From: Opitutia bacterium
GTDB lineage: Bacteria; Verrucomicrobiota; Verrucomicrobiia; Opitutales; Opitutaceae
Reading direction: 5' to 3'
Length of the DNA stretch: 34,754 nt
Assembly (NCBI GenBank): GCA_947467625.1
Contig: CANIJN010000026.1
Span: 1 to 34,754 of the forward strand
Below are positions 1 to 27,203 of the stretch, piece after piece (within the stretch, counting starts at the first letter, position 1; each line of letters begins with the position of its first letter). The notes under the pieces were generated by a model, which was given only the letters and a program-made list of their open reading frames with translations, ran no database searches and was not told the DNA's origin. A program made the position numbers and the translations under genes.

Positions 1-254
1 CGTCTCCGAAATCCCCCCGGAGTGATTCCTGACTAAGTTTCCCCTGGCTCGCGGTCGCCTTCCCCGCGTCGCCCCGGTTGTCTCAATCATGCCAGCCTGC
101 TGGCCACCCCGTTTCCCCGGACAGCCAACCCCACTACCCGTGGTGGTGAGCACTGACCAGGCGTTCGCGACAAGATCAGCCGATAGTAACGCGCTGGATA
201 TCCCTCCTCAGGAGACGGCGCTGGTCGTCAGCGGGGCCGGAAAGCCCGTGCCCC

Positions 255-4789: not shown

Positions 4790-5166
4790 GGGTAGGGCTG
4801 CCGCTCGTCGGCGTGCCGTTCCTGATCTCCCACGTCCGTCATCCGTTGCGCGCGGGCGTGCCGCTCCGTATCGCTCTCCCCGTCTTCTGTTTCCCGTCGC
4901 CTGGCGGCGCACTTTCGGTGCATCCCGCCCGACGACATCCGTGCGAATTCCCCCAGCACGGAGCGACCGGTCCACGTGAGACCGTCTCCACTTCGGCCAA
5001 AAGATGACCGTCCGAAAAAATACCGGTCGCCACTTGCATTGGCCACTCTTCACTCGGAAAGATCGTCCCTGTACCTCACCCTTCCCGCCGCGCCCCCAGC
5101 CTCACCCACCTCAATCAGCCGGAACGTTCGACCGACGTTCCTTTGCTGGTTCCGCCTGTTTCTCAA
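4790..5166. other. Gene-free spacer upstream of TonB-dependent receptor
   Basis: This stretch of about 377 bp between the thrS terminator and the receptor has several overlapping short open frames on both strands. None has a recognisable product, a start signal or consistent codon use. I see no tRNA, riboswitch or convincing promoter motif. It presumably holds the receptor's promoter and a long 5' leader. Confidence 0.5.
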
Positions 5167-8100
5167 ATGACCACTGCCATGAAAAACCTTGAAACGCTCC
5201 CCACCACCCCGCACCGCGCCCGACGCGCGGTTGCCTTCCAGTCCGCCCTGCTGCTCGTCCTCGCCTCCTCCCCGTTCGCGCAGGTTGCCCCCGCTCCCGG
5301 GCTGAGCGCCGCAGCCCTTGCGAAGTACGACACAAATAAAAACGGCCGGCTCGACCCAGTCGAGCAGGCCTCGCTCGACGCCGACCTAAAAAAATCCGCC
5401 ACCGCCGCGTCCGCGCCGACTGCCGCCGAGCCGCGGCCCGGCGAAGAAGTCGTCGCGCTCTCACCATTCGAAGTCGTTTCAGACACCAAGGGCTACTATG
5501 GCGCCAACACGATGTCCGGGACGAGGTTCAACTCGAAGCTCGAAGACCTCGCCTCCTCCATCACCGTGATGACGAAGGAACAGATGTCCGACTTTGCGAT
5601 GCTCGATATCAACGATGTATTCCTCTACACCGCCAGCGCCGAGGGCACGGGCAATTTCACCGATTTCGAGGTGAACCGAAATGGCGACGTGCAAGAAAAC
5701 GTCAGCCTCAATCCCACCCAAGCCAATCGCGTCCGCGGCATCGCCTCGGCCAACGTCTCCCTCGGCAACTTCGAGACCATGGCCCGCGTGCCCGTCGATC
5801 CGCTCGGCGTCGAGGCCGTCGAAATCAGCCGCGGTCCCAATGCCACCATCTCCGGCCTCGGCAATCCTTCCGGCACCGTCAACATGGTGCCGTCTTCCGC
5901 CAACGTCACCCGCGACCGCTCCCAGTTCTCGGCGCGCACCGACAGCTATGGCGGCTACCGCACCAGCCTCGACGTCAACCGCGTGCTCCTGCGCGGCATC
6001 CTCGCCGTCCGCGCCTCAGGTAGTTTCCAGCACGACGGATTTATCCGCGAACCGTCCGGCGTGAACACCGTCCGCTATAATGGTATGGTCCGTTATCAAC
6101 CCTTCAAGAAGACCAGCGTCACTGCGAGCTACTCGGTTTATCGGATGAACGGGAATCGCCCCAACGCGAGCCCACCCCGGGACAATATTTCCTACTGGAT
6201 CGCCAACGGTCGCCCTACTTGGGATCCCGTCGGTCAGGTCATCCACGTCAACGGCCAGACCATCGGCAACGGCGGCTTGGGCACCACCACCCCGATCACC
6301 GCCGACGCCGGCGTGCCCGACTACTTCAATCGTTCCTTCACCGGCAGCGGCCGTTTTTACGCCTACATGGGCCAGGGTGGCCTCGAGTTGCTCGGCACGA
6401 GCGGCTCGACGCTGAACACCAATCCCGGCTCCGGCTCCGGCACGCTGCGCTACATGTCCGTCAGCGCCGGCTCCGGCATCGCCGCCGGCCGCTTCACCGG
6501 CCAGCCCCTCTTCACCACGACCCCGACCGTGACCGACCGGGCGCTCTACGACTGGTCGTCCACCAACCTCGCGGCCATGAATCGCGTGATGGACCGGACC
6601 CTCACCAGCTCCGTGCAGATCGACCAAAACATCATCGATACTCAGATGCACCGCCTCGACGCCCAGGCTGGTTTCCTGCGCGAAGATTCTCAGCGCTACG
6701 CCCGCAACATCATGGGCGAGCTCAACGCAAACGGCCAGTCCGGCCAGCTCCTCATCGATCCCAACGAGCGGCTCATCGACGGTTCGCCGAATCCGTTTTT
6801 CCTCCGCCCCTACATGGGCGTCGATCAACCTTTCACGACGTGGTCTCCGCAAAAATGGGACGCCTATCGCGCCCAGCTCAGCTACCGGCTCGACTTCACC
6901 CAGCAGAAAAATGTCCTGCGCTGGCTCGGCACGCATCAACTCTCCGGCTACGACGAATACAAATACCGCATCTCGCGCCGCTACGCCTACAAGGACGGCA
7001 TCGCCGACCCGCACGCTTGGATTCCCGCCGGCATCTCGCGCGTCAATCAGGGCGCCATCGTCGGCGGACCCGCCGCCGCCGGCAACGTCACGCGCGGTTA
7101 CTTCCGCTATTACCTTGGCGACGCCACCGGCAACAATATCGACTACGCCCCCACCGAGCTCAAATACGGCACCTATAACCTTTTTTACGGCAATCCCACG
7201 ACCGGCTTTGTCCGCGAGCCCACCCTCATCAGCCAGATCGCGACCACCGATCGCACCGGAGGCGGCAACAATTCGAAAACCATCCTGAAAACCCTCGGCG
7301 GCGTCGTGCAAAGCAACTTCCTCGACAACCGCATCGTCACGACCTTTGGCAAGCGCGAGGACCAGCAATTCGTCAAAAACGGGGCTACCCCGCAGCGCCT
7401 CACCGCCGACGGACTCAGCTTTGATTACGAATCCCTCAATCACTGGTCGTCGGGGGACTACCGGGTGAACAGCGGCGACACCACGCAGCAGGGCGCCGTC
7501 GTGCGGCCATTCCGCGGTTGGCGGGCCATCAACGAAATGGCCAGCAGCCCGGGACTGACGGGATTCGTCGGCCAGGCGCTCACCGGCCTCTCGCTCACCT
7601 ATAACCAGTCCGACTCCTTCCGGCCTCAAGATCCGCGCGTAGACCTCTATCTCAATCCGCTGCCCAATCCCTCAGGTGCCGGCAAGGACTGGGGATTCGC
7701 GCTCAACATGTTCGACAACACGTTCGTTCTCCGCGTCAACAAATACGAGACCTCACAGCTCAAGACCCGCGGGGGCGACGCCGGCACGATCGCCCAGCGC
7801 GTCACGCGCACCGACGTTGCTTCGACCGCCGCCTTCCTACTGCAAACGCAGGCGCTCCTCTGGGTAGCGGCAGCCAACCCCACGTTCACCCAGACGCAGA
7901 TCGAAACCGAGGTCGGCCGCCAGATGGGCATTCCGTGGGAGCGCCAGGTCGCGATCGAAAACGCATTCGATGCCGGCCTGATTTCCTCCACCAACGACAT
8001 CGTCGCCACCGGTACCGAGATCGAGCTCAATTATAACCCCACCAACTATTGGACCGTCGCCGCCTCCTTCACCGAAAACGAGGCCACCAATGCCAACGTA

Positions 8101-8718
8101 TCGAAGGACATCGCCCAATGGATTAGCGAGCGGATGCCGTTCTGGACCACGATTCGCGACCAGCGGGACAACGCCCTGTGGTGGACGAAGAACTACGGCG
8201 GCTCACAAACGGCGGCCCAAAACTACGCGGTATTCGTCGGCGCGCCTTATGCCGTCGTCCAGCAGTCCGAGGGGGCGCCCAATCCTCAAATCCGAAAATA
8301 CTCCGCTCGGTTCAGCACGAACGTCAAACTCAGCGGCATCACCCAGCACAAGCTGCTTCGGCAGTTCGAGGTCGGCGGCGCACTCCGCTATCAGGACAAG
8401 GGCTTCCTCGGTTACTACGGCAAGCAGCAGCTCCCCGCGACCATCACCGAGCTCGATCGCAACCGGCCCATCTACGACCAAGGAAGTTTCTTCGGAAAAA
8501 CCACCACGAGCGGCCACTACTTCCTCGATGCGAACGTCCGCTATCGCACGCGGTTGTGGTCCAATAAGGTCTCCTCAACTTTCCAGCTCAACATCCGCAA
8601 CCTCCAAGAACCAGGCAACCGCCTGCAAACGATCGGAGCTTTCCCGGATGGCACTCCACACACCTACCGCATCGTCGATCCGCGACAGTTTATTCTGACC
8701 GCGACGTTCGACTTGTAG
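5167..8718 (+). CDS. TonB-dependent outer-membrane receptor with N-terminal EF-hand-like loop
   Basis: The gene encodes a large energised outer-membrane importer of about 1183 residues; the substrate is not evident. After a basic RARR stretch comes a hydrophobic signal segment (about 21-38). A canonical 12-residue EF-hand loop follows, DTNKNGRLDPVE (55-66), with Asp1, Asn3, Asn5, Gly6 and Glu12 in place. Next is the TonB-box-like EEVVALSPFEVVS (93-105). The plug domain contains MSGTRFNSKLEDLASSITVMT, RVRG and VEISRGPNATISGLGNPSG, followed by a long beta-barrel ending in FILTATFDL. This N-terminal arrangement resembles receptor families common in Opitutaceae, often linked to glycan uptake, though that role is only inferred. 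ATG 5167 is chosen; 5179 (MKNLETLP) is equally plausible, and neither has a clear ribosome binding site. No SusD partner or sugar-degrading genes lie nearby. Confidence 0.9.
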   Translation: MTTAMKNLETLPTTPHRARRAVAFQSALLLVLASSPFAQVAPAPGLSAAALAKYDTNKNGRLDPVEQASLDADLKKSATAASAPTAAEPRPGEEVVALSPFEVVSDTKGYYGANTMSGTRFNSKLEDLASSITVMTKEQMSDFAMLDINDVFLYTASAEGTGNFTDFEVNRNGDVQENVSLNPTQANRVRGIASANVSLGNFETMARVPVDPLGVEAVEISRGPNATISGLGNPSGTVNMVPSSANVTRDRSQFSARTDSYGGYRTSLDVNRVLLRGILAVRASGSFQHDGFIREPSGVNTVRYNGMVRYQPFKKTSVTASYSVYRMNGNRPNASPPRDNISYWIANGRPTWDPVGQVIHVNGQTIGNGGLGTTTPITADAGVPDYFNRSFTGSGRFYAYMGQGGLELLGTSGSTLNTNPGSGSGTLRYMSVSAGSGIAAGRFTGQPLFTTTPTVTDRALYDWSSTNLAAMNRVMDRTLTSSVQIDQNIIDTQMHRLDAQAGFLREDSQRYARNIMGELNANGQSGQLLIDPNERLIDGSPNPFFLRPYMGVDQPFTTWSPQKWDAYRAQLSYRLDFTQQKNVLRWLGTHQLSGYDEYKYRISRRYAYKDGIADPHAWIPAGISRVNQGAIVGGPAAAGNVTRGYFRYYLGDATGNNIDYAPTELKYGTYNLFYGNPTTGFVREPTLISQIATTDRTGGGNNSKTILKTLGGVVQSNFLDNRIVTTFGKREDQQFVKNGATPQRLTADGLSFDYESLNHWSSGDYRVNSGDTTQQGAVVRPFRGWRAINEMASSPGLTGFVGQALTGLSLTYNQSDSFRPQDPRVDLYLNPLPNPSGAGKDWGFALNMFDNTFVLRVNKYETSQLKTRGGDAGTIAQRVTRTDVASTAAFLLQTQALLWVAAANPTFTQTQIETEVGRQMGIPWERQVAIENAFDAGLISSTNDIVATGTEIELNYNPTNYWTVAASFTENEATNANVSKDIAQWISERMPFWTTIRDQRDNALWWTKNYGGSQTAAQNYAVFVGAPYAVVQQSEGAPNPQIRKYSARFSTNVKLSGITQHKLLRQFEVGGALRYQDKGFLGYYGKQQLPATITELDRNRPIYDQGSFFGKTTTSGHYFLDANVRYRTRLWSNKVSSTFQLNIRNLQEPGNRLQTIGAFPDGTPHTYRIVDPRQFILTATFDL

Positions 8719-8971: not shown

Positions 8972-11900
8972 TCACGGCCCCGGAGCAAACCCGTCTTCGG
9001 TGTCCGCCTGAAGGTGATACGCGCCCGTGCGGGCTGTGCCGGCGCGGACGTTGTAGAGTTCGATCACGCGGGTGAGCTCGAGGAGTCCGATCAGGGCATC
9101 ACGATTCGTATCGGCCGAATGATAGGGAGTAAACGTGGCGGTGCCGGACCGCGCAGGATCGGAATCGAAACCGTCCTCCGTTGCGGCATTGAGCTTATAC
9201 GCACCGGTGCGCACGGTGCCATTACGCACGTTGTAAAGTTCGATCACGCGCGTGAGCTCGACGAGACCGATCCGGCCGCTGGCATCCGTGTCGGCGCCGT
9301 GGCGCGCCGCGCCCACCACAATCACGAGGGGGTCCGCTTGCGCGAGCAATCGCAACGCGGGACCACCGAGGAGCAGATTGACCAGTGACACGACCTGCTG
9401 GCTGCCGCTTTGCCCCGCCGGCACACTGACCACGACTCGAAAGGTCAGCGGATTCGCCGGAATCGTCGTCCAAGACCACGTGAGCAGATTCTGTGTCCTC
9501 ACGGCCGGTTTCACCTGCGCCCCGCTGCCCGTCTCGGAAACGAAACTCCATCCCTCCGGCAGCACCATCTGCCAATCGAGCGCCGTGGCCGCACCAGCAT
9601 AGGTGAGCGTGTGCTCGAGGGTGAGCTGCGTGCTCCCCACGTAACCGACCGCGACCACCTGGTGCGCCGCTCCCGTGCCCGCCGGTACGACGCCGACGAC
9701 CGCCGCCGACGACGTGGCGCTGCCGCCGGAGTTTCTCACCACGACGGTGTAGCTGCCGGCCTGACTCACCTGCACCGCAGTGAGGGCGTAGCTGGCGGCG
9801 GTCGCACCGGCGACATCCACGCCGTCTTTCTGCCATTGATACGTGAAGGGCCCCACGCCTCCGGCCACGACCGACAACGTAACAGTCCCGCCGGCGCCGA
9901 TTTGTTGTGAGGTCGGTGCTGTCGCGATCGTGGGCGGTGTGCCGGCGGAAATCACATAAGTGCTGTCGGCAAACACACTCACCTGCCCATCGTCGGCGGT
10001 GAGGCGGAGAACGTAGGTACCCAGTCCTGAAAAAAGTGCCGTCGTCTCCAACGAGGAGGCGTTGCCAAACGTCACGGTGCCGGGGCCGCTGACGCTCGAC
10101 CAGAGAGTGGTGACGGCTCCGGGCGGCGTGGGCTGGCTGTCGTCGGACACGGTGCCGGCGACGGCAATGGCGTCGGTGGGGTAGGTCCCCCCGGCACCGG
10201 ACGAGACGACGGGGGCGACGTTGCCGGGGATGACACTGAGGTTATCGAGCACGACGGTGTTGAGCGCGGTGGCGGCGCTGTCGACCGCGAGGCCGACGTG
10301 GATCGGCGCGCCGGCGTTGAAGACCTGGGTGGATCCTTGCTGGACCCACGCGGAGGGCGTGTTGCTTGCGGAGTTGAGCGAGCGGAATGCGGTGAGCGTG
10401 TCCCCCTCGCGCACGAGGCGGATCCACTGCGGGTTAGCCTTGGAGCTTCCGTAGCTGGTCGCGGAGGAGCCACCGATGACATTGCGCCAGGTGAAGTAGC
10501 CGCCCCAGGAGTGCGCGATGCCCATCATCCCGTGCGGCGCGGAGTCGGCGCTCGCGTCGCGGATCATCACGCCGCCCTTGGCGGAGAGGGAGCTGCCGGT
10601 GTGGCTCACGAGCCGAGCGGTGACGGTGACATCGCCGACGAATTGTTGGAAACGGAAGCGTCCGGAGTCGCCGAGTGTGCCGCTCGCGGCGATCGTGTAA
10701 CTGGAGCCGTTGACCACGGTGCTACCAGCTGTGCCGGGGGTGCCCAGGTCCTCGTCCACGAGCGCGACACCGGCGGGGCTGAGGGCGACATTATCGAACG
10801 TCGCGGAGGCCGTGGTGTTGAGCGTGGCGTTGGTGGCGGCGACTCCCAGATTCACATTCGGCGCGAGCGCGGTCAGCGTGAGCGCGGTGCCGACCTGCGT
10901 CCACGCGCCGGCCGCGCCCGCAGCATCGGCGGCGCGGTACGCAGTGAGGATGTCGCCGTTGCGCTCGATTTTGATCCAGACAGGAAACGTGACGGTGCCG
11001 CCGGACGTGAGCGTGTTGCTGCCGCCAATCGTCGTCCGTGTGTGCCATTCGAGGGCACCGCCGGGTTTGACTGCAAGCAGGGCGCGGCGCGCGCCGCGGT
11101 AATTGGTTTCGCGCACCATCACGCCGGCGAGGGCGTTGGTCGCCGCGCCTGAGGCTAAACCGGTTAAGCGCGCGACGACCGACGAGGTCGCGGCCTCCAC
11201 TTGCCGCGCGACGAAGTGGCCGCTGTCTGTCGTGGCGTTGAAGCCGCTGCCGGAGCCGACGACGGTGAGGACGCCGCCGATCTCGCCCGAGCCGCCGCGC
11301 GTGGTCGGCGCGCCGAGGCTCACGTCGATCCAGTTCGCAGCCGCGAAGCCGCCCACCTGCACGGTGACCTCGTCGAAAACAGTGAACTGTCCGTCAGTGA
11401 CGCTGATACGGAGGATGTAGAGGCCGTTGGCGGAGAAGGTAGCGGCCGTCGCAGCCGCGGCAGGCGCCCCGAAGGTGACTGTGCCGGGACCGGAAAACTT
11501 CGACCACGTGTAAATGAGCGGGCTCGGCGCACCGTCGTCGGTGGCGGTAGCGACGAGGTGCAGACCGAGACCCGCGGCGAGTTGCACGGCTTTGGCGGCG
11601 GGTTGGACGACCACGATGGTGGGTGGGGTGTCGTTGTCCGCGATGGTCAGGCCCGCGAAGCTCGCGGTGCCGAGCGCATAGTTCGCACTCGTCGAGAGGG
11701 AGACGACGACGTACTCGGGACCTTCGGTGATCGCGTCGTTGACGGGCGTAACGACGAGCGTGGAGCTGGCGGCTCCCGCAGGAATCGTGAGGCTCGTGCC
11801 GAGGGCGGTGTAATCGGTGGCGCTCGTGGCGGTGCCCGTGACGGTGAACGTCACGGTGAGTGCAGCCGTGGTGGCGCCCGTGCGCGTGACGGTGAAGGTG

Positions 11901-14900
11901 CCGGTATCGGGCCCCGTTTCCGAGGCCGTGGCGTCGGTCGCGGCGATGGAGACGACGGGCGTGTTGGTGTCCGCGATCGTGACGGTAACGGCGGTGGCGG
12001 TGCCGACAGTGTAGGCGGCGTTGGCGGCGAGCGTGAGGCTAACGGTCTCGGCCGTTTCGTTGACCGCATCGGCGAGCGGCTTGAGGGCGAGGGGGGCTGA
12101 GCTCGCACCGGCGGGGATCGTGAGGGTGGTACCGAGGGCGGTGTAGTCGGTGCCACTCGTGGCGGTGCCGGAGACGGTAAACGTCACGGTGAGCGCTACC
12201 GTGGTGGCGCCAGTGCGCGTGAACGTCCACTGACCAGCGTCGCCGTTTTCCGAGGCGTCGGCATCGGTGGCGGCGAGCGTGACGACGGGGGTATCATCGT
12301 CGGTGATCGTGACGGTGTGCACGGCGGAGGTGGTGAGCGTCGCGCCGGTGGCGACGGAGAGAGTCAGCACCACGGTCTCGGCGGCTTCGACGACGGTGTC
12401 GCCGATAAGCGCGAGCGGGACGAGTTTCGTGGTTTCGCCCGGTGCGAAGCTGAGCGTGCCGGCGGGGAGCGTGAAATCGGTACCGGCTGCGGCGGTGCCG
12501 CCGGTGACGGCATAGTTTACCGTGACGGTGGTAGCCGCGGGTTGGCTGAGTGCAACAAGCACAGCCGGCGCGGCGCCCTCGGCGACGGTGCTGGTGGCGG
12601 CGGCGAAACCTACCGAGGGCTGGAGCGGCGCGACGTCGTTGTCGCGGACAACGAGGATGTGTTGGTTGAGCGTGGTCGAGAGCGCGGCACCGTTGGCATT
12701 GCGCAGCGTGAGCACGATGTGCTCGTTGGGCTCGGGCAGAAGATCGTCGACGAGGGTGAGCGGGATCGACGCCGTGGTGACGCCGGGAGCGAAGGTGAGC
12801 ACGCCGGGCACAAAAGTGTAGTCGACCCCGAGAGCACCCGCGGTGTTAGCGGTGGCAGTGCGGGTGTAGAGCTGCGTGAGGGTGGCCCCGCGCTGGGCGA
12901 CGAGCACGTAGCGGGAATTGCGGCGAAGGTCCTCGCGCACCATCACGCCGGCGAAGCGGGTGGTCGAAGTGCCGGCGCTGGTGACGACGCGCGCCACAAA
13001 CGTGAAGTCACCGCTCGCCGGGAAATTCACAAACTGGAACGAGTCCGCAGACGACGCGGCGATCGTCGAACCCGCGCCGGTGAGCGTGTAGGTGCCGGCG
13101 GCGACGCTAAACGAGCCGGTGGTAGCGACCGAGCCGACGTCGCGACCGGTGACGGCACCAAGGGCCGCGCCGTTGAGCGTGACGTTGTCAAACGTGGCGG
13201 TGGCGAGGGTGCCGTCAGTCGTGGCGCTGCAGACGACGAGACCGACAAGGACGGGATCAGCCAGAACCATCGCGGGCGGCGCGGTGAAGGTGGTCCACGT
13301 GGTGCCATTGGCGGACTGGGAGCCGACGAAGGAAGTGCCGGTGCGGACGATGCGGACCCAGCGCGGCAACGTGGTTGTAAATTGGATACCGCTGTTGCCG
13401 GTCGTGCCCGGCGAGGTGACGACGTATTCGACAGTGACGGGGCTCGCTGCGGCGGCGGAGAGCGCGACGGGCACGGTGATCGCTCCGGCGGACTCGGCGA
13501 CGACGCTGCCGACGGTGGCGAAGCCGACGGTGGCGGCGGGCACCTCGTCGTCGGTGAGGTAGAGCGTGGCGGGCGCACCGCGCGAATAGCCGCCGGCGGC
13601 GAGCGTGAGCACGACGGTCTCGATGCCCTCGGCCAGCGTATCCTGCGTGGGCGTCACGGGCAGATCCACACCGGGCGCGCCGGCGGGAATCGTGACGGCG
13701 CCGGAAAGCGTCTGGTAATCGACGCCGTTGGTCGCGGTGCCGCTCACCGTGTAGTTGACGATGAGCGCGGCGGTGGTGCTGCCGGTGCGGGAGAGGTAAA
13801 ATTTACCGGCGGTCGTCGCGCTCTCGGCGAGCGTGGTGACGCCGTTGTTCGCCGTGCCGTGGGCATCGACGAAGACGGTGGGCTGCTCATCGTCGTACAG
13901 CCAGAGCGTCGCGGAGCGAGTGGCATCCCAAAGCTGATACGCGGCGCTGGGCGTGAGTGTGACGACGATGGTCTCGAGGTCTTCGGCGAGCGTGTCGTTG
14001 ATCGGGGTGACGGCGACGTCGACGATATTATTGCCGCCGCCTCCCGTGAAAGTAACGGTGCCGGAAAGCGCGGTATAGTCGGTGCCGGCAGTGGCGGTGC
14101 CGCCGACGGTATAGTTGACGGTGACAGCGGCGGCGGAACTGCCTCGCAGGGTGAAGCGGAATTTACCGGCGGTGGACGGCTCGCGCACGCTCGTGAGCGG
14201 GATGACCTCGACGTAGGGCAGGTCGCCGGCGTCGACGATGGTGATGAGGCCTGAGCTCACGAGACCGAGCCGGTAGCCGGCACCGCCGGCGGCGAGTTGC
14301 ACGAGCACGTTTTCAGCAGGCTCGCCGAGAGAATCGAAGCGCGGCGTGATGACGATACTGGCGCGGGCTTCGCTGGCGGGCAGCGTGACGGAACCCGGGA
14401 GCGCCTCGTAATCGACGCCATGGAGGGCGGTGCCGGCGAGCGCGTAGTAAACGGTGAGCGGCGCGGAGAGGTCGCCACTGCGCGTGACGACGAAGACGGC
14501 GGGATCGGGCACGGCGCCGGGCAAGGCTAAGTTGATCTCGGTAGCGACGTCGTCGGCGACCTCGAGGGAGACGACCTGTTGATCGTCGTCGATAATGGTG
14601 AGCGTGGCGATGCTGGCGGCGGGATCGACGATGTAGGCGGCGTTAGTCGCGAGCGTGACGATGACGGTTTCAAACTCTTCGGCGACGGTGTCGTTGATCG
14701 GCGTGAGTGCGACGGTGGCGGTGGTGGCACCGGCGGAAATGGTCACGGTGGCGGGGAGCGCAGCGTAGTCGGTGCCGCTCGTGGCGGTGCCGGCGTAGTT
14801 CAGTGAGACCGTGAGGGCGGCGGTCACGAGGCCCGTACGCGCGATTGTGAAATTGGCGGCGCGTACGGGATTTTCGGCGGCGGCAATGGTGTCGGCGGTG

Positions 14901-17749
14901 AGCGAGACTTTGGGAAGCGCGGTGTCGTCGTCGTCGATGGTGACGGTGGCAGTCGGCGAGCCGGCGATAGCATAGCCGGAGTCGAGACCGAGCTGGAGCG
15001 TGACCGTCTCCGGGCCCTCACTCACGGTGTCGTTCACCGGGGTGACGAGGAGTTCGAGCGAGGCGGCGCCGGCGGGAATGGTGACGGTGTTGTAGGGCGA
15101 GCCGGTGGTGAGCGCGGGCGTGAACGTGTAGTCGGTCGTGAGCGCGGCGGTGCCGGTAGGAGGCACGAGGGCGACGATGAGCGCCTCCACATCGGAGCCG
15201 GTGCGCGTAAGCGTGAATTTACCGGCGACGGTGCCGGCCTCGGCGGCGCGCGGCGTGGTGGCGACGAGTGATACGGTGGGGACCAGATCGGCCGCGAAGT
15301 TGGCACCGGAAAAATTCGGGCCGACAAGGACACTATTATTAAAGAGATCGTTGAACGTGTAGCCAAAGAGGAGCGGCGAGACGGTATAGGTGCCGGCGGA
15401 AAGATTCGGGATGGTGTAGTAACCGTCGCTATCGGTGACGACGCCGTTGCCCGTGCCGGTGGAGAGGCCGACGCCGGCGAGGCCCTGGCCGGCGAGGGTG
15501 ATGCGACCGGAGATCGCGTAGCGGGAGTTACCGTTGCCGACGGTGACGAGGAGCAAACGCGTAGCGACGGCGCCCTTCATATCGGAGACGGTGCAGGTGA
15601 CGACATACTGGCCGGCAGTAGCGAAGCTGCGGGTGAAAGCGGGGGCGTTGGGGCCGACGACGGCGGTGGCAGCGGCGGTGCTGTCGGACGAGCGCCAATG
15701 GAAGGCGAGCGCATCCGCGTCGGGATCGGTGGCGGTGGCAGTGAAGGTGACTTGCGCGCCGGCGGGGACGTTGAGCGCGCTCGCGGCGAGCGCGAGAGTG
15801 GGCGCACGATTGCCGGGGAACGGGCCGAAGTTCACCCGGACATCGGCGCTGCGTTCGCCGGAGGCGTCGGTGGCGACGGCGAGCGTGGTGAGGTAAATCT
15901 CGGACTCGGAATCGACGAACGTCTGGCCGACGACGAGCGGCGCATCAGAGCGGCCGGCGGCAGAGGATGGCGTCGTGTCGATGAGGTGGAGGTTATCGCC
16001 GCTGTTTTGCGGCCACCTCCAGCCGAGGAGGACGCCGTTGGCGGCCCACTTATTTTCCACGTCGATCAACGCGCGGAGTTCAGCCCAGTAGGTGCGCTGG
16101 GCGTCTTTCGTGAGTTTCAGCGCGTAGCGTTTGGTGGGGTCGAGTTGTGGTTGGTCGAAGGCGTGGAGGCGGTAGGTGCCGCTGGCAGTGATCGTTTGCA
16201 CAAAATCGTTCGGGAGCCAACGCACCTGGTTTTTCGCCTGCACGTTGAGGTGGTTGCGGGGGAAGTTCGAGCCGGAGGAGCCCATGATGTCGAAGATGTC
16301 GCCGTATTCGAGATTCGAACCGGGGCCGATGGCGCTGGCGCCGCTGGTGTCCCAGAAATTGGCGTGCGCGAGACCGAAGCAGTGGCCGAGCTCGTGCGCG
16401 ACCGTTCCGGGTGAATCGTTATACATCCAGACGGAGGTGCCACCGCCCCAACCGCCGACACCGGCGCTGCGCGGCCCGCCGGTGAGACGGACGACGACGG
16501 CATCGTAATCGCCACTGTCGTACCCGAGCTTGCGGGCCTCCTCGCGCGCGTGGGCGTGCTCGAGGCCGAGGGCGTCGAACTCCTTACTGAAGCCCTCGGT
16601 GGAATCCTTCTGCACATACCACGCTTCGTTGTGCGGGAGCTTGATCGGCGGCGTGACCGTAGCGTGTGCAGTGAGACGCCCGTAGGAGGCCTTATAAAAG
16701 AATTCGGAGACGTCGCGCATGACCTCGTAACACTTGGCCTCGGAGACGGGGATCGTATTTTGGTCGGCAAACGTGAGCGGGATGTAGAGCACGCGCAGCT
16801 CGCCAAGCGACGTGGAGGGCGATGCGGGGAGCGCGCCGATGAAGCGTTGCGTGCCGCCGGTGATGCCCTCGCCCTGCACTTCGAGGCGAGCGACCTGTTC
16901 TTCAAACAACGAGACGTGACTCCCATCGCAGAGGTAAATGATCTCGCCGTGCGCCTCGACGGCGACGACCTCTTCCGCGATCGCCTCGGTGGGCGGGGTG
17001 GCGAGCGTGGTCTTGCCTGAAACAGGACAAATCTCGACGGCGGGTTTACCGGACAAAGGAATCTCGCCGACCTCGAGCCGACGCAGCGGACTCTCGTGGA
17101 CGGCGAGCACGCGATCGAGCGCGACACCGTTGAGCGAAGCGTTAGGCAGCCAGCGCATGGACTCGGTACGGCGGCCGTAAACGTGGGCTTCGTAGGTGGT
17201 GCCGTCCTGAAACTCCGCATACCGCATCACCGGAGGCTGCACCGGAGCCGCCGGATCGAGCGGGGCAGACTGGTAGATGCGCAATTGGGCGCGGCCTTCA
17301 ACACGCTCTTCGAGTTGCGCAACGACCTCGGCGGGCAATTGCTGGCGCACCACCATCGGCACGGCTTGGCGCAAGGCTTCACGCGGATGGGTAATGATGA
17401 GGTCCTTAAACTCGGCCCGGCGAGCCGCCGCGAGTTGGACGCCCTCGGCCACGAGCGCGGCGCGCGCCGCCGGAGTCGCCGCGAGGTAACGCTGAGCCCA
17501 CGACTGAAATTGACCGAGCGACGAGCCGAGTGACGCGAGCACGGGCGAAAGCGCTGCGGGGCTGGTTTCTCGCACTGCCGTCGCCACGAGTGGGGTGGTG
17601 CGCGCGGCCTTCGCCGCCGACCCGGCGCGGGCGGCCGCCCCCGCCGTCCAGGTAGCATCGGTCGGTGATTCCGAGCGCCACCAGAAAATCAGCGCGCCCA
17701 GAGCGCAGAGCATGAAAACGGCGCGCACGAAGATTCGGCGAAACGTCAT
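8972..17749 (-). CDS. Giant M6-like metalloprotease with Calx-beta array, LamG-like modules and C-terminal EF-hand repeats
   Basis: A 2925-residue extracytoplasmic protein. Residues about 3-24 form a basic-hydrophobic signal or anchor. A protease domain carries the zinc motif HELGHCFGLAH (452-462) and a downstream DIMG Met-turn (Met489); the preceding VLYIPLTFADQ and SEFFYKASYGRL segments resemble peptidase M6/gametolysin-type enzymes. Then come a PKD-like domain (647-740), a carboxypeptidase-regulatory-like beta domain (743-821), nine Calx-beta-like domains (823-2038), a PKD-like domain (2043-2133), two LamG-like sandwiches (2136-2509), another PKD-like domain, an Ig-like domain (2605-2688), an unassigned beta domain (2693-2811) and two EF-hand loops with TEDGF tails. 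The ATG at 17749 is preferred because MTFRRIFVRAVFMLC starts a signal segment there. An upstream in-frame ATG at 17920 would add 57 residues with a second hydrophobic stretch. The probable role is surface or secreted proteolysis and adhesion; substrate unknown. Confidence 0.85.
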   Translation of the reverse strand: MTFRRIFVRAVFMLCALGALIFWWRSESPTDATWTAGAAARAGSAAKAARTTPLVATAVRETSPAALSPVLASLGSSLGQFQSWAQRYLAATPAARAALVAEGVQLAAARRAEFKDLIITHPREALRQAVPMVVRQQLPAEVVAQLEERVEGRAQLRIYQSAPLDPAAPVQPPVMRYAEFQDGTTYEAHVYGRRTESMRWLPNASLNGVALDRVLAVHESPLRRLEVGEIPLSGKPAVEICPVSGKTTLATPPTEAIAEEVVAVEAHGEIIYLCDGSHVSLFEEQVARLEVQGEGITGGTQRFIGALPASPSTSLGELRVLYIPLTFADQNTIPVSEAKCYEVMRDVSEFFYKASYGRLTAHATVTPPIKLPHNEAWYVQKDSTEGFSKEFDALGLEHAHAREEARKLGYDSGDYDAVVVRLTGGPRSAGVGGWGGGTSVWMYNDSPGTVAHELGHCFGLAHANFWDTSGASAIGPGSNLEYGDIFDIMGSSGSNFPRNHLNVQAKNQVRWLPNDFVQTITASGTYRLHAFDQPQLDPTKRYALKLTKDAQRTYWAELRALIDVENKWAANGVLLGWRWPQNSGDNLHLIDTTPSSAAGRSDAPLVVGQTFVDSESEIYLTTLAVATDASGERSADVRVNFGPFPGNRAPTLALAASALNVPAGAQVTFTATATDPDADALAFHWRSSDSTAAATAVVGPNAPAFTRSFATAGQYVVTCTVSDMKGAVATRLLLVTVGNGNSRYAISGRITLAGQGLAGVGLSTGTGNGVVTDSDGYYTIPNLSAGTYTVSPLLFGYTFNDLFNNSVLVGPNFSGANFAADLVPTVSLVATTPRAAEAGTVAGKFTLTRTGSDVEALIVALVPPTGTAALTTDYTFTPALTTGSPYNTVTIPAGAASLELLVTPVNDTVSEGPETVTLQLGLDSGYAIAGSPTATVTIDDDDTALPKVSLTADTIAAAENPVRAANFTIARTGLVTAALTVSLNYAGTATSGTDYAALPATVTISAGATTATVALTPINDTVAEEFETVIVTLATNAAYIVDPAASIATLTIIDDDQQVVSLEVADDVATEINLALPGAVPDPAVFVVTRSGDLSAPLTVYYALAGTALHGVDYEALPGSVTLPASEARASIVITPRFDSLGEPAENVLVQLAAGGAGYRLGLVSSGLITIVDAGDLPYVEVIPLTSVREPSTAGKFRFTLRGSSAAAVTVNYTVGGTATAGTDYTALSGTVTFTGGGGNNIVDVAVTPINDTLAEDLETIVVTLTPSAAYQLWDATRSATLWLYDDEQPTVFVDAHGTANNGVTTLAESATTAGKFYLSRTGSTTAALIVNYTVSGTATNGVDYQTLSGAVTIPAGAPGVDLPVTPTQDTLAEGIETVVLTLAAGGYSRGAPATLYLTDDEVPAATVGFATVGSVVAESAGAITVPVALSAAAASPVTVEYVVTSPGTTGNSGIQFTTTLPRWVRIVRTGTSFVGSQSANGTTWTTFTAPPAMVLADPVLVGLVVCSATTDGTLATATFDNVTLNGAALGAVTGRDVGSVATTGSFSVAAGTYTLTGAGSTIAASSADSFQFVNFPASGDFTFVARVVTSAGTSTTRFAGVMVREDLRRNSRYVLVAQRGATLTQLYTRTATANTAGALGVDYTFVPGVLTFAPGVTTASIPLTLVDDLLPEPNEHIVLTLRNANGAALSTTLNQHILVVRDNDVAPLQPSVGFAAATSTVAEGAAPAVLVALSQPAATTVTVNYAVTGGTAAAGTDFTLPAGTLSFAPGETTKLVPLALIGDTVVEAAETVVLTLSVATGATLTTSAVHTVTITDDDTPVVTLAATDADASENGDAGQWTFTRTGATTVALTVTFTVSGTATSGTDYTALGTTLTIPAGASSAPLALKPLADAVNETAETVSLTLAANAAYTVGTATAVTVTIADTNTPVVSIAATDATASETGPDTGTFTVTRTGATTAALTVTFTVTGTATSATDYTALGTSLTIPAGAASSTLVVTPVNDAITEGPEYVVVSLSTSANYALGTASFAGLTIADNDTPPTIVVVQPAAKAVQLAAGLGLHLVATATDDGAPSPLIYTWSKFSGPGTVTFGAPAAAATAATFSANGLYILRISVTDGQFTVFDEVTVQVGGFAAANWIDVSLGAPTTRGGSGEIGGVLTVVGSGSGFNATTDSGHFVARQVEAATSSVVARLTGLASGAATNALAGVMVRETNYRGARRALLAVKPGGALEWHTRTTIGGSNTLTSGGTVTFPVWIKIERNGDILTAYRAADAAGAAGAWTQVGTALTLTALAPNVNLGVAATNATLNTTASATFDNVALSPAGVALVDEDLGTPGTAGSTVVNGSSYTIAASGTLGDSGRFRFQQFVGDVTVTARLVSHTGSSLSAKGGVMIRDASADSAPHGMMGIAHSWGGYFTWRNVIGGSSATSYGSSKANPQWIRLVREGDTLTAFRSLNSASNTPSAWVQQGSTQVFNAGAPIHVGLAVDSAATALNTVVLDNLSVIPGNVAPVVSSGAGGTYPTDAIAVAGTVSDDSQPTPPGAVTTLWSSVSGPGTVTFGNASSLETTALFSGLGTYVLRLTADDGQVSVFADSTYVISAGTPPTIATAPTSQQIGAGGTVTLSVVAGGVGPFTYQWQKDGVDVAGATAASYALTAVQVSQAGSYTVVVRNSGGSATSSAAVVGVVPAGTGAAHQVVAVGYVGSTQLTLEHTLTYAGAATALDWQMVLPEGWSFVSETGSGAQVKPAVRTQNLLTWSWTTIPANPLTFRVVVSVPAGQSGSQQVVSLVNLLLGGPALRLLAQADPLVIVVGAARHGADTDASGRIGLVELTRVIELYNVRNGTVRTGAYKLNAATEDGFDSDPARSGTATFTPYHSADTNRDALIGLLELTRVIELYNVRAGTARTGAYHLQADTEDGFAPGP
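9077..9292 (-). repeat. C-terminal EF-hand/'TEDGF' repeat pair in the giant protein
   Basis: Two copies lie 180 bp apart. Each has a 12-residue calcium-type loop, DTDASGRIGLVE (codons at 9257-9292) or DTNRDALIGLLE (9077-9112, with Gly6 replaced by Ala). Each continues as LTRVIELYNVR.GT.RTGAY, then TEDGF. At DNA level 9051-9094 and 9231-9274 are nearly identical. The spacing and the Asp/Asn ladder resemble dockerin-type calcium loops, but the conserved tail is different. Confidence 0.85.
10226..11344 (-). repeat. Two tandem LamG-like (concanavalin-fold) modules in the giant protein
   Basis: Two consecutive modules of about 180-190 residues share the order: a GHFVARQ or RFRFQQF strand, a VMVRE or VMIRD motif, an RALLAVK or HGMMGIAH strand, WIKIERNGD or WIRLVREGD, and an end at FDNVALSP or LDNLSVIPG. 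The pattern fits carbohydrate-binding-like or LamG beta-sandwich modules found in large secreted proteins. A third, rearranged copy is embedded in the Calx-beta array at about 12848-13402. Confidence 0.65.
11636..15283 (-). repeat. Array of nine Calx-beta-like domains
   Basis: About 3.6 kb of coding sequence consists of units of about 105-120 codons. Each has the order: ESG..GKFTLTRTG-like strand, V.Y.V.GTAT.GTDY, TIPAG, a P.NDT..E..ETV.LTL acidic loop, and an end in TI.DDD. The acid-rich ends are typical Calx-beta calcium ligands. Units 8 and 9 (about 12286-11960 and 11959-11636) are the most alike, for example LTVTFTVSGTATSGTDY against LTVTFTVTGTATSATDY, which suggests recent duplication. 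Unit 6 is interrupted by foreign module sequence. Confidence 0.85.
12836..13402 (-). other. Circularly permuted module inserted inside Calx-beta unit 6
   Basis: Calx-beta unit 6 (13534-12641) breaks after VTVEYVVTSPGT and resumes at ALGVDYTFVPGVLTF. Between them are about 185-190 residues that begin with the second half of a LamG-like module (LPRWVRIVRTG to TATFDNVTLNG) and end with its first half (DSFQFVNF, AGVMVREDLRRNSRYVLVA). The order is therefore permuted relative to the intact modules at 10226-11344. The two junctions carry a similar sequence: accgctgttgccggt at 13388-13402 and acccgcggtgttagcggt at 12836-12853. Confidence 0.6.
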
Positions 17750-17954
17750 AAAGATCGGGTCTGGTTCGAGCCGCGTAGAATCATAGCGGGGCGCAGAAAA
17801 ATGGCTCAAGAATGCTAGCGCCACAAAAAAACAAAGCGTCGTCACCCGCACACCACTCTCCACCGCGCAGCCGTCTTCGCTGCCCGCGCGCACGACTACG
17901 CGAGGGTGCGCATGCAACACCTTTCAAATCCTTTCCGCCACCCGCCCCCAGAGT

Positions 17955-25229: not shown

Positions 25230-27062
25230 TCACCACGCGTAGCTCGCGCCGATTGAAATCTGCCGACGCGCCGCCGGCACGGCCGGGACCTCTTGGAAAC
25301 GACTATCCCACACGTTATCCGCCATCGCAGAAAATTCGACGCCCTGCCATCTGCGCGGACGATACCCGAGCCCCAGCGAACTGGTCACCGCCGAGTCGCC
25401 CCCGATCACCCGCAGCACATTGTCGGCTTGGATCCGGGCGACATTATCCATCCGCACCTCAAAGCCACCCCCGAGCCGCGCGGTAATCGCCGCGGTCAGC
25501 CGGTGCCGAGCGTAGTTGAGCGCGTAGAAACTGGCATCGACGAGCGCCCCGCGATAACCGGCATTTTTCGTCAAACCCGTGTAGCCGACGACGAGATCCA
25601 CGGCTCTCCACGCCCGCCGGGCGAGGAGTTCCACGCCCGGCGTGTCGATGTCGACGGCATTGGCCGCGCGCGCCGTCACTCCACGCCGAAACGTCCAGTC
25701 CACCAACGCGTCATCGCGCCGATAGAAAACCGCCGCCTGACCCGACCAACCCGCCCAGGCGAACCGCGCACCGAGCTCGAGGTTGCGACTGGTTTCACGG
25801 CCCAGATTCGCATTCCCGCGAAACAGCCCTGACACGGCACTCGAATTCAGCGCGGTGTAAGTCGGCACCTGCGTTGTTTGCGCGTAACTGAAATAGATCC
25901 GCTGCAGAGCCGCCGCTGGCTCTTCCCGGGCAAGCTCCAGGATCGGGGAGCCTTTTCCGCCACTGCGATTGCCGTCGTCGTAACCCACTCCGGCCCTCAG
26001 AACCACGCGCTCCCCAGCGCCCGGCGTCCACGTTTTCTCGGGCACCAACGCGAATTTAGTCAAGGTGCGCGCATGGAAATTTCCCGCCGTCAGCGAGGTC
26101 GACTTGAGCTCGTCAGCGAGCACTTCGCCGCGAAAATTAATTGCCAACTCCCCCGCTGTTTTCCGGCCGCCAACGGCCGCGCCCTGCGCCCACGTCGTGT
26201 GTTGAAACGGATGCACCGGACCCACCGCCGCGAAGCGGTTGTACGCATAGTCGTCCTTGTTGCGCCGATACCATGCGCCCGCCTCGACGAAGTCGCCGCG
26301 GCCGAAGTCGGTGCGATGATTCACCGCGACCAGCAGCGTCTGGAGATTTTCGGATTCGTTAGAATTGAACGGCGTATAAAGATTCGGCCAACCAAAGAAC
26401 TTCGCTTGGTAGCCGGCAACGAGGTCGGTTTGGGAGGTCGCCCCAGCCAACTGCACGCGCGCATTGAAACGATCGAAATTGTGTTCGCCAAAGGGCACCG
26501 CACCTTCTGCCTCCGAACGTGCCCACGCGACGTCCGCCGCCAACCGCTGCCCGCCGACGCGCAGGTCACTCAACCAGCCCTGATAGAGCTCTTGGCGATT
26601 CAAACTATACTGCCCCGCCGCAAGCGCAAGTGAGCCGCCGGTACGAATCGGCCGCCAGCCGTAGGCCACCGCGCCCACCGTCGAATTCGCGGCGCTGAGG
26701 GCATGCTCGGCTCCGGTGAGGATTTCCGGCGCGCCCAGCATCGCCGGCGTCACCGGTATCTCCGCCGAATAGTGCCCGGTCTGGGGATCAAAAACTGAGA
26801 CCGCTCCGATCCTCACACCCGTGTTTTCGAAAATCCCCCCGCGAATGGTCACATCGGCCTGCGCCTCGGCGAAATTGCGTCCCGCGATGTCGAGACGCGG
26901 CTCGAAGCGCAACGCCGAGACCGGCATCGCAAACGTTCCCACCGGCGACTGATTCGCCACCCGCGTCGAATGGACGGCCACTTCAGGGAGATTCACGGCG
27001 CTGTTTTGAGCACAGACCGACAGCGTAACCCCGGCGCAGAGCAACGTAAAAACAGGTTTCAT
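25230..27062 (-). CDS. TonB-dependent outer-membrane receptor (BtuB/CirA-like size)
   Basis: A 610-residue receptor. ATG 27062 begins MKPVFTLLCAGVTLSVCAQ, a clean signal peptide cleaved near AQ-NS. A TonB-box-like LPEVAVHSTRV follows. The plug domain has ADVTIRGGIFENTGVRIG and EILTGAEHALSAANSTVGAV, where other receptors show VEVxxGP. The beta-barrel contains YFSYAQTTQVPTY, NLGRETSRNLELGARF and TPGVELLARRAW and ends in ISIGASYAW, with the usual terminal aromatic. It is much smaller than the receptor at 5167 and lacks an EF-hand loop. No cobalamin riboswitch or Fur-like box was recognised in the 140-bp leader, so the ligand is unknown. It is first in the probable operon with the M3 peptidase and cupin. 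Confidence 0.9.
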   Translation of the reverse strand: MKPVFTLLCAGVTLSVCAQNSAVNLPEVAVHSTRVANQSPVGTFAMPVSALRFEPRLDIAGRNFAEAQADVTIRGGIFENTGVRIGAVSVFDPQTGHYSAEIPVTPAMLGAPEILTGAEHALSAANSTVGAVAYGWRPIRTGGSLALAAGQYSLNRQELYQGWLSDLRVGGQRLAADVAWARSEAEGAVPFGEHNFDRFNARVQLAGATSQTDLVAGYQAKFFGWPNLYTPFNSNESENLQTLLVAVNHRTDFGRGDFVEAGAWYRRNKDDYAYNRFAAVGPVHPFQHTTWAQGAAVGGRKTAGELAINFRGEVLADELKSTSLTAGNFHARTLTKFALVPEKTWTPGAGERVVLRAGVGYDDGNRSGGKGSPILELAREEPAAALQRIYFSYAQTTQVPTYTALNSSAVSGLFRGNANLGRETSRNLELGARFAWAGWSGQAAVFYRRDDALVDWTFRRGVTARAANAVDIDTPGVELLARRAWRAVDLVVGYTGLTKNAGYRGALVDASFYALNYARHRLTAAITARLGGGFEVRMDNVARIQADNVLRVIGGDSAVTSSLGLGYRPRRWQGVEFSAMADNVWDSRFQEVPAVPAARRQISIGASYAW

Positions 27063-27147
27063 CGCTGACTCGTTAGCAGCCTCGCGAACGAAAACAAGCC
27101 CCTGTTTCAAAGTTCTCAATCGTTCATTAACAAGTCGGCGGCCCGCC

Positions 27148-27179
27148 AAAAAAAGAACCCCAGAATAAATCCGGGGTTC
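27148..27179 (-). terminator. Rho-independent terminator of the ferredoxin gene
   Basis: GAACCCC (27155-27161) and GGGGTTC (27173-27179) form a perfect 7-bp stem with an 11-base loop. Read on the minus strand the hairpin is followed by seven T (27154-27148). It lies about 25 bases after the ferredoxin stop and separates that gene from the downstream receptor operon. Confidence 0.9.
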
Positions 27180-27203
27180 ACACACCTGATAAAAAACGAG
27201 GAC

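Follow-up and report, generated by a model that had tools for sequence, protein, structure and literature searches.

How does a beta-sandwich module come to lie inside another beta-sandwich domain with its two halves in reversed order, and what could such an arrangement do? The question is raised by a giant modular protein encoded on a contig of an Opitutia bacterium (CANIJN010000026.1, positions 1 to 34,754; this whole stretch of 34,754 nucleotides is hereafter called the window). The ORF (8972..17920, minus strand, stop included) specifies 2,982 residues, and all features described below lie on the same strand. The protein is probably secreted and its true start is probably located downstream of the GTG, which is doubtful because residues 1-45 or 1-15 (the 17750-17920 region) are absent from the ORFs of congeners and because a membrane-type stretch begins with MTFRRIF at residue 58. 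The N-terminal part contains HELGHCFGLAH (residues 509-519; 16364..16396), which we take to be a zinc-metallopeptidase motif of the metzincin-like type; the Pfam matches to M66, reprolysin and Metallopep at this motif are weak, every one of them below its cut-off. A Pfam scan of the protein reported nine Calx-beta stretches, PKD-type and Ig-like domains, and DUF1349. By Pfam PF03160 and a Calx profile of our own, Calx-beta units 1-5 occupy residues 882-1458 (13547..15277) and units 7-9 residues 1768-2096 (11633..12619). Beyond them lie a PKD-type stretch (residues 2122-2189) and, shortly after it, two intact LamG-like modules in normal order, delimited with our own profiles: module A (residues 2195-2384; 10769..11338) and module B (residues 2385-2564; 10229..10768).

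The C-terminal 110 residues or so (2870-2982; 8975-9313) contain two dockerin-like D-x-(D/N) repeats and have counterparts of roughly 50-65% identity in many further congener ORFs (in all six genomes searched); they are possibly a shared sorting or anchoring domain. TonB-dependent receptor-type genes are situated near the giant gene (5143-8718 and 25230-27185; Plug domain at 1.4e-5, beta-barrel at 1.1e-11), and genes for M3 and S41 peptidases are found farther along.

It is the sixth Calx-beta unit that is interrupted. Its N-terminal part (residues 1460-1506; 13403..13543), assigned from the sequence and a structure model, went unreported by our own Calx profile in the window and was reported in the congener G007, while its C-terminal part (residues 1696-1764; 12629..12835) was recognized by Pfam (profile 43-114 of 119), by our own profile and by the model. 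The residues VTVEYVVTSPGT end at 13403 and ALGVDYTFVPG starts at 12835. Between these junctions lie 189 residues, in which the second half of a DUF1349/LamG-like module, H2 (residues 1507-1590; 13151..13402; Pfam, profiles and structure model), precedes the first half, H1 (residues 1591-1695; 12836..13150; profiles and structure model). The original prediction, made from the letters of the window, had placed the split at 13402/13403 and 12835/12836, which is exact, and had described a segment about one module long with its second half in front. Profile matches and alignment agree with that description, and the insert, when rearranged as H1 + H2, aligns along the full length of both intact modules.

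A profile of 36 intact modules, none of them permuted, was grown from A and B over loci of related genomes; searched against the gene, it matched the insert at hmm 64-172 and then at 2-101, module A at 3-172 and module B at 1-172. With a second profile of 30 modules of other genomes, from which the modules of the window gene and of two congeners had been removed, the insert alone matched at hmm 106-172 with 58.6 bits and then at 2-100 with 83.1 bits, the best match among 200 shuffles of the insert being 5.6 bits. With its halves restored to normal order it scored 148.7 bits, compared to 106.8 for module A and 115.6 for module B. The insert matches the 30-module profile as a whole module, with H2 ahead of H1 in place of the normal strand order, and is a circular permutant of the DUF1349/LamG-like (ConA-like) family, not an ordinary member of it. 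Pfam DUF1349 (PF07081) sees H2 only (residues 1496-1583, profile 91-177 of 179), at 35.5 bits in the scan of the whole protein against a curated cut-off of 32.4, and finds the intact modules weakly, at 24 bits, below that cut-off.

We also considered simpler explanations for the reversed order. A wrongly assumed module phase is ruled out, since many single intact modules in other ORFs run from profile position 1-2 to 169-172, and also because module A begins soon after the PKD-type stretch at 2122-2189. An assembly artefact of a single genome is ruled out by the identical arrangement in other MAGs. The module profile also extends into the N-terminal part of Calx unit 6, with matches starting at hmm 42-110 in 13 Calx rows; homology as an explanation for this overrun was dropped, since in the window it raises the score of the insert by just 2 bits or so. 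Similar short sequences had furthermore been proposed to mark both junctions. Such sequences exist, but their likeness is no better than chance, the local alignment score of the pair being 16 versus a mean of 21.5 for random in-frame pairs of the gene, 91% of which score at least 16; the junction repeats are therefore not supported as traces of recombination. Another kind of interruption was observed at locus L035, in a minus-strand ORF of 1181 residues, where a LamG-like module (residues 940-1179) carries about 50 extra residues mid-module and matches the profile at hmm 1-61 and then at 59-172.

An AlphaFold2 model of residues 1459-1764, built from 22 aligned rows, has a mean pLDDT of 81 and a pTM of 0.64. 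Foldseek alone returned two matches to this model at E <= 0.001, both of them NCX1, and the permuted glucanase 1ajo at 0.045; the high Z-scores come from a second structural alignment of the Foldseek matches. In this alignment CALX-CBD1 (3ead_B) was superimposed with a Z of 15.6 (111 of 114 residues aligned, rmsd 1.6), and since it aligns from model residue 4 to 306, the Calx fold is predicted to close across the insert as a complete domain; a tree of Calx units, described below, clusters this unit with the sixth unit of relatives. For the insert itself (model residues 47..232), the top match is 1ajo_B (Z 12.3, 163 aligned, rmsd 3.4, chain 1..214), an engineered, circularly permuted glucanase, and the next matches are ConA-type lectins at Z 9.4 and below. 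A search of solved structures up to E = 1 returned no sequence relative of the intact modules. Compared with the solved structures, the insert has a predicted ConA-like fold that is complete once and cyclically shifted, and its two halves are predicted to pair into a normal sandwich with the new termini adjacent. The closure of unit 6 around a complete permuted sandwich, suggested as a check on the original prediction, is thus seen in the model of residues 1459-1764, and the two outcomes that had been offered as alternatives, a domain within a domain or a permuted but foldable sandwich, both hold by prediction. We consider the architecture, a permuted module nested in Calx-beta unit 6, to be very likely from the profile matches and the model.

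If the module was inserted, relatives with an uninterrupted unit 6 might be expected. A search with residues 1470-1770 in 141 genomes, including the genome of the window, gave matches in 16 genomes at a threshold of 1e-8. Two congeners (contigs CAMCHO010000055.1 from Opitutus sp. GAS368 and CANHJG010000010.1 from an Opitutae bacterium) keep the whole arrangement with the insert in the same position, at 91% and 78% identity. In another congener, G008, the N-terminal part is present and the contig ends inside Calx unit 5, before the insert site. Relatives that lack exactly this segment were also identified, as the original prediction had anticipated: G012, from another genus of the same family, is collinear with window residues 113-1501 at 46% identity, and G202, from another family of the same class, with residues 55-1514 at 40% identity. 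Unit 6 is uninterrupted in both, reading DYLLGGGTALGQIDYLF and EYGVQSGTALGHGVDFWL, respectively, as against EYVVTSPGT / ALGVDYTF in the window, and GT directly precedes ALG in each of them. In a tree of 76 Calx units, unit 6 of G202 joins the window-type unit 6 (92/90) and that of G012 falls within a clade of units 6 and 7; the latter is called unit 6, not 7, on the grounds of collinearity, since the clade mixes the two. The C-terminal part of the G012 protein ends after six Calx units and has no LamG-like modules, and that of G202 has one.

The dN/dS ratios for the window versus each of the two congeners, computed by NG86 with no test applied, were 0.20 and 0.24 for H1 and 0.55 and 0.22 for H2, all below 1. 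In the closest pair, H2 (0.55) and Calx6-N (0.57) had the highest values among 13 regions. This high H2 value, along with the swapped order of the halves, is what might be expected if the insert consisted of non-working half-modules left by deletions and tolerated in the loop. We find this highly improbable, however, as the module is complete, scores above the intact modules when reclosed, has dN/dS values below 1 and a closed fold by prediction, and is present across families.

The complete, permuted sandwich in unit 6 occurs in two forms. In a scan with the module and Calx profiles, the one-unit form, Calx6N-[H2-H1]-Calx6C, was detected in four distinct genomes, namely the window, the two congeners and L114 (Opitutus sp. 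GAS368 isolate TrH-25oct19-122), and a two-unit form, Calx6N-[H2-(H1H2)-H1]-Calx6C, in 17 further loci. The two-unit loci were counted from two collections, in which the same species may occur twice; they include 10 named records, eight of which are Verrucomicrobiaceae or Prosthecobacter, and seven genomes from families f53, f65 and f84. A model of the two-unit region at locus L123 (residues 1458-1957; 10 rows) has a mean pLDDT of 70 and a pTM of 0.51, with ends under pLDDT 50. It includes an outer second half, H2a (45-122), and an outer first half, H1c (331-430), with the intact inner module between them. Its best match is 1ajo_A (Z 11.7, 165 aligned, rmsd 3.3), with residues 49 and 426 as the first and last aligned, and as one compact target is reached from both ends, the outer halves appear to pair in this model. 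The Calx part is poor, with a best Calx match at Z 8.0 only. The two-unit form appears, from the model, to be a three-level nest: an intact sandwich within a permuted sandwich of the same family within a Calx-beta domain.

These forms bear on how the permutation arose. Permutation by duplication is a standard route to circular permutants, and it is quite conceivable, if short of what we would predict with confidence, that it took place here within the loop. Two or three intact H1H2 modules would then have entered the Calx loop and later lost the outermost H1 and H2, leaving H2-H1 or H2-(H1H2)-H1, and no phase-shifted piece would ever have been excised and moved. The two-unit form of the 17 loci corresponds to three modules minus the end halves. 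However, in all 21 Calx-nested loci the edges of the nest are free of intact modules, and in the two hosts for which insert-free relatives are available, little host sequence is missing or extra at these edges.

The second of these hosts is DUF1800, a stretch of which was found in 12 of the 41 genomes of family f11 at 1e-8. Five of these (G293, G601, G593, G597 and G550) have H2-H1 inside the DUF1800 domain and seven are without it. Four of the insert-free proteins (G626, G638, G428 and G620) are close relatives whose alignment with the insert-bearing ones continues on either side of the gap, at identities of about 46-74% in front of it and 55-77% behind it. The remaining three (G629, G305 and G656) are distant and can be aligned on a single side only. 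Pfam DUF1800 was scanned for in two of the proteins and covers profile positions 1-362 and 1-361 of 419 before the insert. A third host contains the two-unit form in two genomes from different classes, G329 and G755. Its flanks are homologous on both sides of the insert (43% and 50% identity) and we infer the nesting from these flanks alone; no insert-free homologues were found among 240 genomes, the query genome being the sole match.

The position of the cut is similar in all three hosts. In every one of the 18 rows compared, the end of H1 falls at hmm 89-106, and H2 starts at hmm 96-112 in the five rows outside Calx and at 106 for the window insert alone. By sequence and prediction, the permuted unit is reused in Calx-beta, in DUF1800 and in the third host, each time opened at the same hairpin. 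On a uniform model, two further hosts would share the cut within 8 positions with a probability of about 0.01, but folding permits only some loops, which makes this a weak test.

The phylogenies provide information on the source of the nested module. In a tree of 70 modules, each taken as H1+H2 on the assumption that outer halves belong to one another, a single clade (99/96) unites the window group's nested modules with the outer modules from 10 of the 17 two-unit loci. Modules A and B each cluster with their own orthologues (100/98). Because it groups with other Calx-nested modules, and A and B with their own orthologues, the nested module is, according to this tree, old and not a recent copy of the neighbouring modules. 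The local array at 10226-11344 is thus rejected as a recent donor of the insert. The original prediction, that a phase-shifted unit cut from a tandem array was inserted into a loop, can be pictured as a transfer of one array period into the Calx loop in a single step, after excision as a circle or through template switching at the same hairpin. In its favour are the whole numbers of units (one or two), in shifted phase and with a similar cut in three hosts, and the many tandem arrays of the module met in the scanned ORFs. Against it, folding constraints alone would likewise leave whole units, the likeness of the junction sequences does not exceed chance and the local array is not a recent donor; we regard this route as somewhat doubtful.

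Another scenario is that a single ancestral module was permuted once and then moved between hosts as a ready-made insertion domain. One clade of all permuted units (18 rows, with three of the five DUF1800 inserts used) was rejected, though only at a p-AU of 0.0425, and the H1 tree places the DUF1800 insert with two intact modules (92/84), all of which makes this scenario unlikely in our judgment, even if the cut is similar in the three hosts, the H2 of DUF1800 and of window-type Calx inserts are adjacent in the H2 tree (95/74), and the union of the window group and DUF1800 in one clade is not rejected (p-AU 0.106). In the trees of the separate halves, H1 of the window group joins ten H1c (90/79), and its H2 belongs to a set of 20 rows (96/94) with all ten H2b and two of the ten H2a, being nearest to those two H2a and the DUF1800 rows. 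The one-unit form may have lost either H2a-H1b or the inner module. A single origin of the permuted unit is, from these trees, weakly rejected, and there may have been one to three permutation events. Since the rejection is only weak, the shared cut site may reflect inheritance and not repeated choice.

The nested, hairpin-permuted module may also be considered from a functional viewpoint. In the model, the insert enters Calx-beta unit 6 in frame through the loop that joins its third and fourth main strands, and appears to sit before the conserved G-x-D-Y/F of this unit; unit 7 aligns to GTANAGSDY of NCX1, and the G-x-D-Y of the insert loop was equated through unit 7. The acidic positions AES, GVDY, VDDLLPEPNE and RDND are present in unit 6, and calcium binding here is putative, the role of these positions and of G-x-D-Y being presumably the one they have in NCX1. 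The Calx-beta repeats could form a calcium-stiffened stalk behind a presumably secreted metallopeptidase-like domain. Unit 6 would be the split domain on which the lectin-like module is mounted so as to point sideways from the stalk, with a tether at one end of the module and a putative ligand-binding face free at the other. Permutation at the hairpin would give the sandwich two neighbouring ends, by which it may be mounted in a loop from that side, and since both module ends are brought into one hairpin, the permutation would suit insertion into a loop. A binding function by side display is suggested by analogy and we put it forward tentatively. Taken as a whole, the reading of one complete ConA-like (DUF1349/LamG-like) sandwich, permuted at a hairpin, housed in unit 6 and with a side-display role, seems probable to us.

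The analogy is with the RTX adhesins AhLap and FrhA, in which split domains project ligand-binding domains and one split-domain example is a nest within a nest (PMC12077191, PMC10865825). As in those adhesins, a scaffold domain is interrupted by a candidate binding domain with adjacent termini in a long, extender-type chain, and by prediction the insert buds from the split scaffold in the manner by which PMC12077191 defines a split domain. The hosts described there are Ig-like, RTX beta-roll or vWFA domains, whereas here the host is Calx-beta and the domain it carries is a permuted version of modules that the protein also holds intact; neither Calx nor permut has a match in the main texts of PMC12077191 and PMC10865825. 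The 19 Pfam families listed for the giant protein include no RTX family, and the nested module is likened to the split domains by its presumed mode of working, not by membership.

Permuted inserted domains are already known. Examples are the HABAS and BEAN insertional domains of RNA polymerase, the HABAS topologies being related by circular permutation and recursively inserted (PMC11515920), and a survey of domain insertions states that inserted domains may be permuted (PMC13114784). Like the module studied here, these are small domains inserted into several unrelated hosts (PMC11515920, PMC13114784). As described there, however, they represent early insertions into core machinery and have another fold, whereas here a lectin-like module is found in large modular proteins with its intact form in the same chain. 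Given the permuted HABAS insertions in RNA polymerase, the nested permuted module belongs to a kind of arrangement that is already known, in a different form. Circularly permuted ConA-like jelly rolls are represented by concanavalin A and by the engineered glucanase CPA16M-127 (1ajo). Concanavalin A is permuted post-translationally and 1ajo was engineered, whereas the permutation is encoded here and the domain is nested. The module shares H2 with DUF1349 (PF07081) above the curated cut-off and differs from it in being permuted and nested, and unit 6 aligns in the model over its whole length with the Calx-beta domains of NCX1 and CALX, from which it differs by 189 loop residues. In the literature searched, we found no joint treatment of Calx-beta with circular permutation or domain insertion, of a nested domain with circular permutation and a beta-sandwich, or of a split domain with a ligand-binding domain and circular permutation; DUF1349 occurred together with the term circular only in work on mitochondrial outer-membrane proteins, as far as the retrieved records extend.

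To our knowledge, natural circular permutation combined with domain insertion has seldom been met with its different states available for comparison. In the present case the module occurs both intact and permuted within one protein, the corresponding loop in relatives is empty or contains one unit or two, and DUF1800 likewise occurs in empty and filled states, so that the order of events and the choice of the cut site become testable. A lectin-like module with reversed halves inside a split domain also offers a sequence criterion for display modules in the giant modular proteins of the Verrucomicrobiota; in the protein of the window, Pfam reported this module as a half match only. One hypothesis, which we offer with some reserve, is that a ConA-like module, permuted beforehand, serves the Verrucomicrobiota as a standard plug-in: one- or two-unit cassettes, always opened at the same hairpin, would be placed in the loops of unrelated hosts (Calx-beta, DUF1800 and the third one), with the ends serving as one tether, a chosen face turned outward and the two-unit cassette forming a three-level nest.

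Unit 6 is not the only Calx-beta unit with an interruption. Unit 4 is also split in eight of the 21 loci with a nested module (L114, L115-L119, L121 and L192). In L114 (ORF residues about 1164-1599) it is split by an RCC1 propeller (PF25390, 2.1e-68), and in L116, L118 and L192 by repeats of the AVGDxGxIL type that have no Pfam name. Several Calx loops seem to serve this protein family as mounting points.
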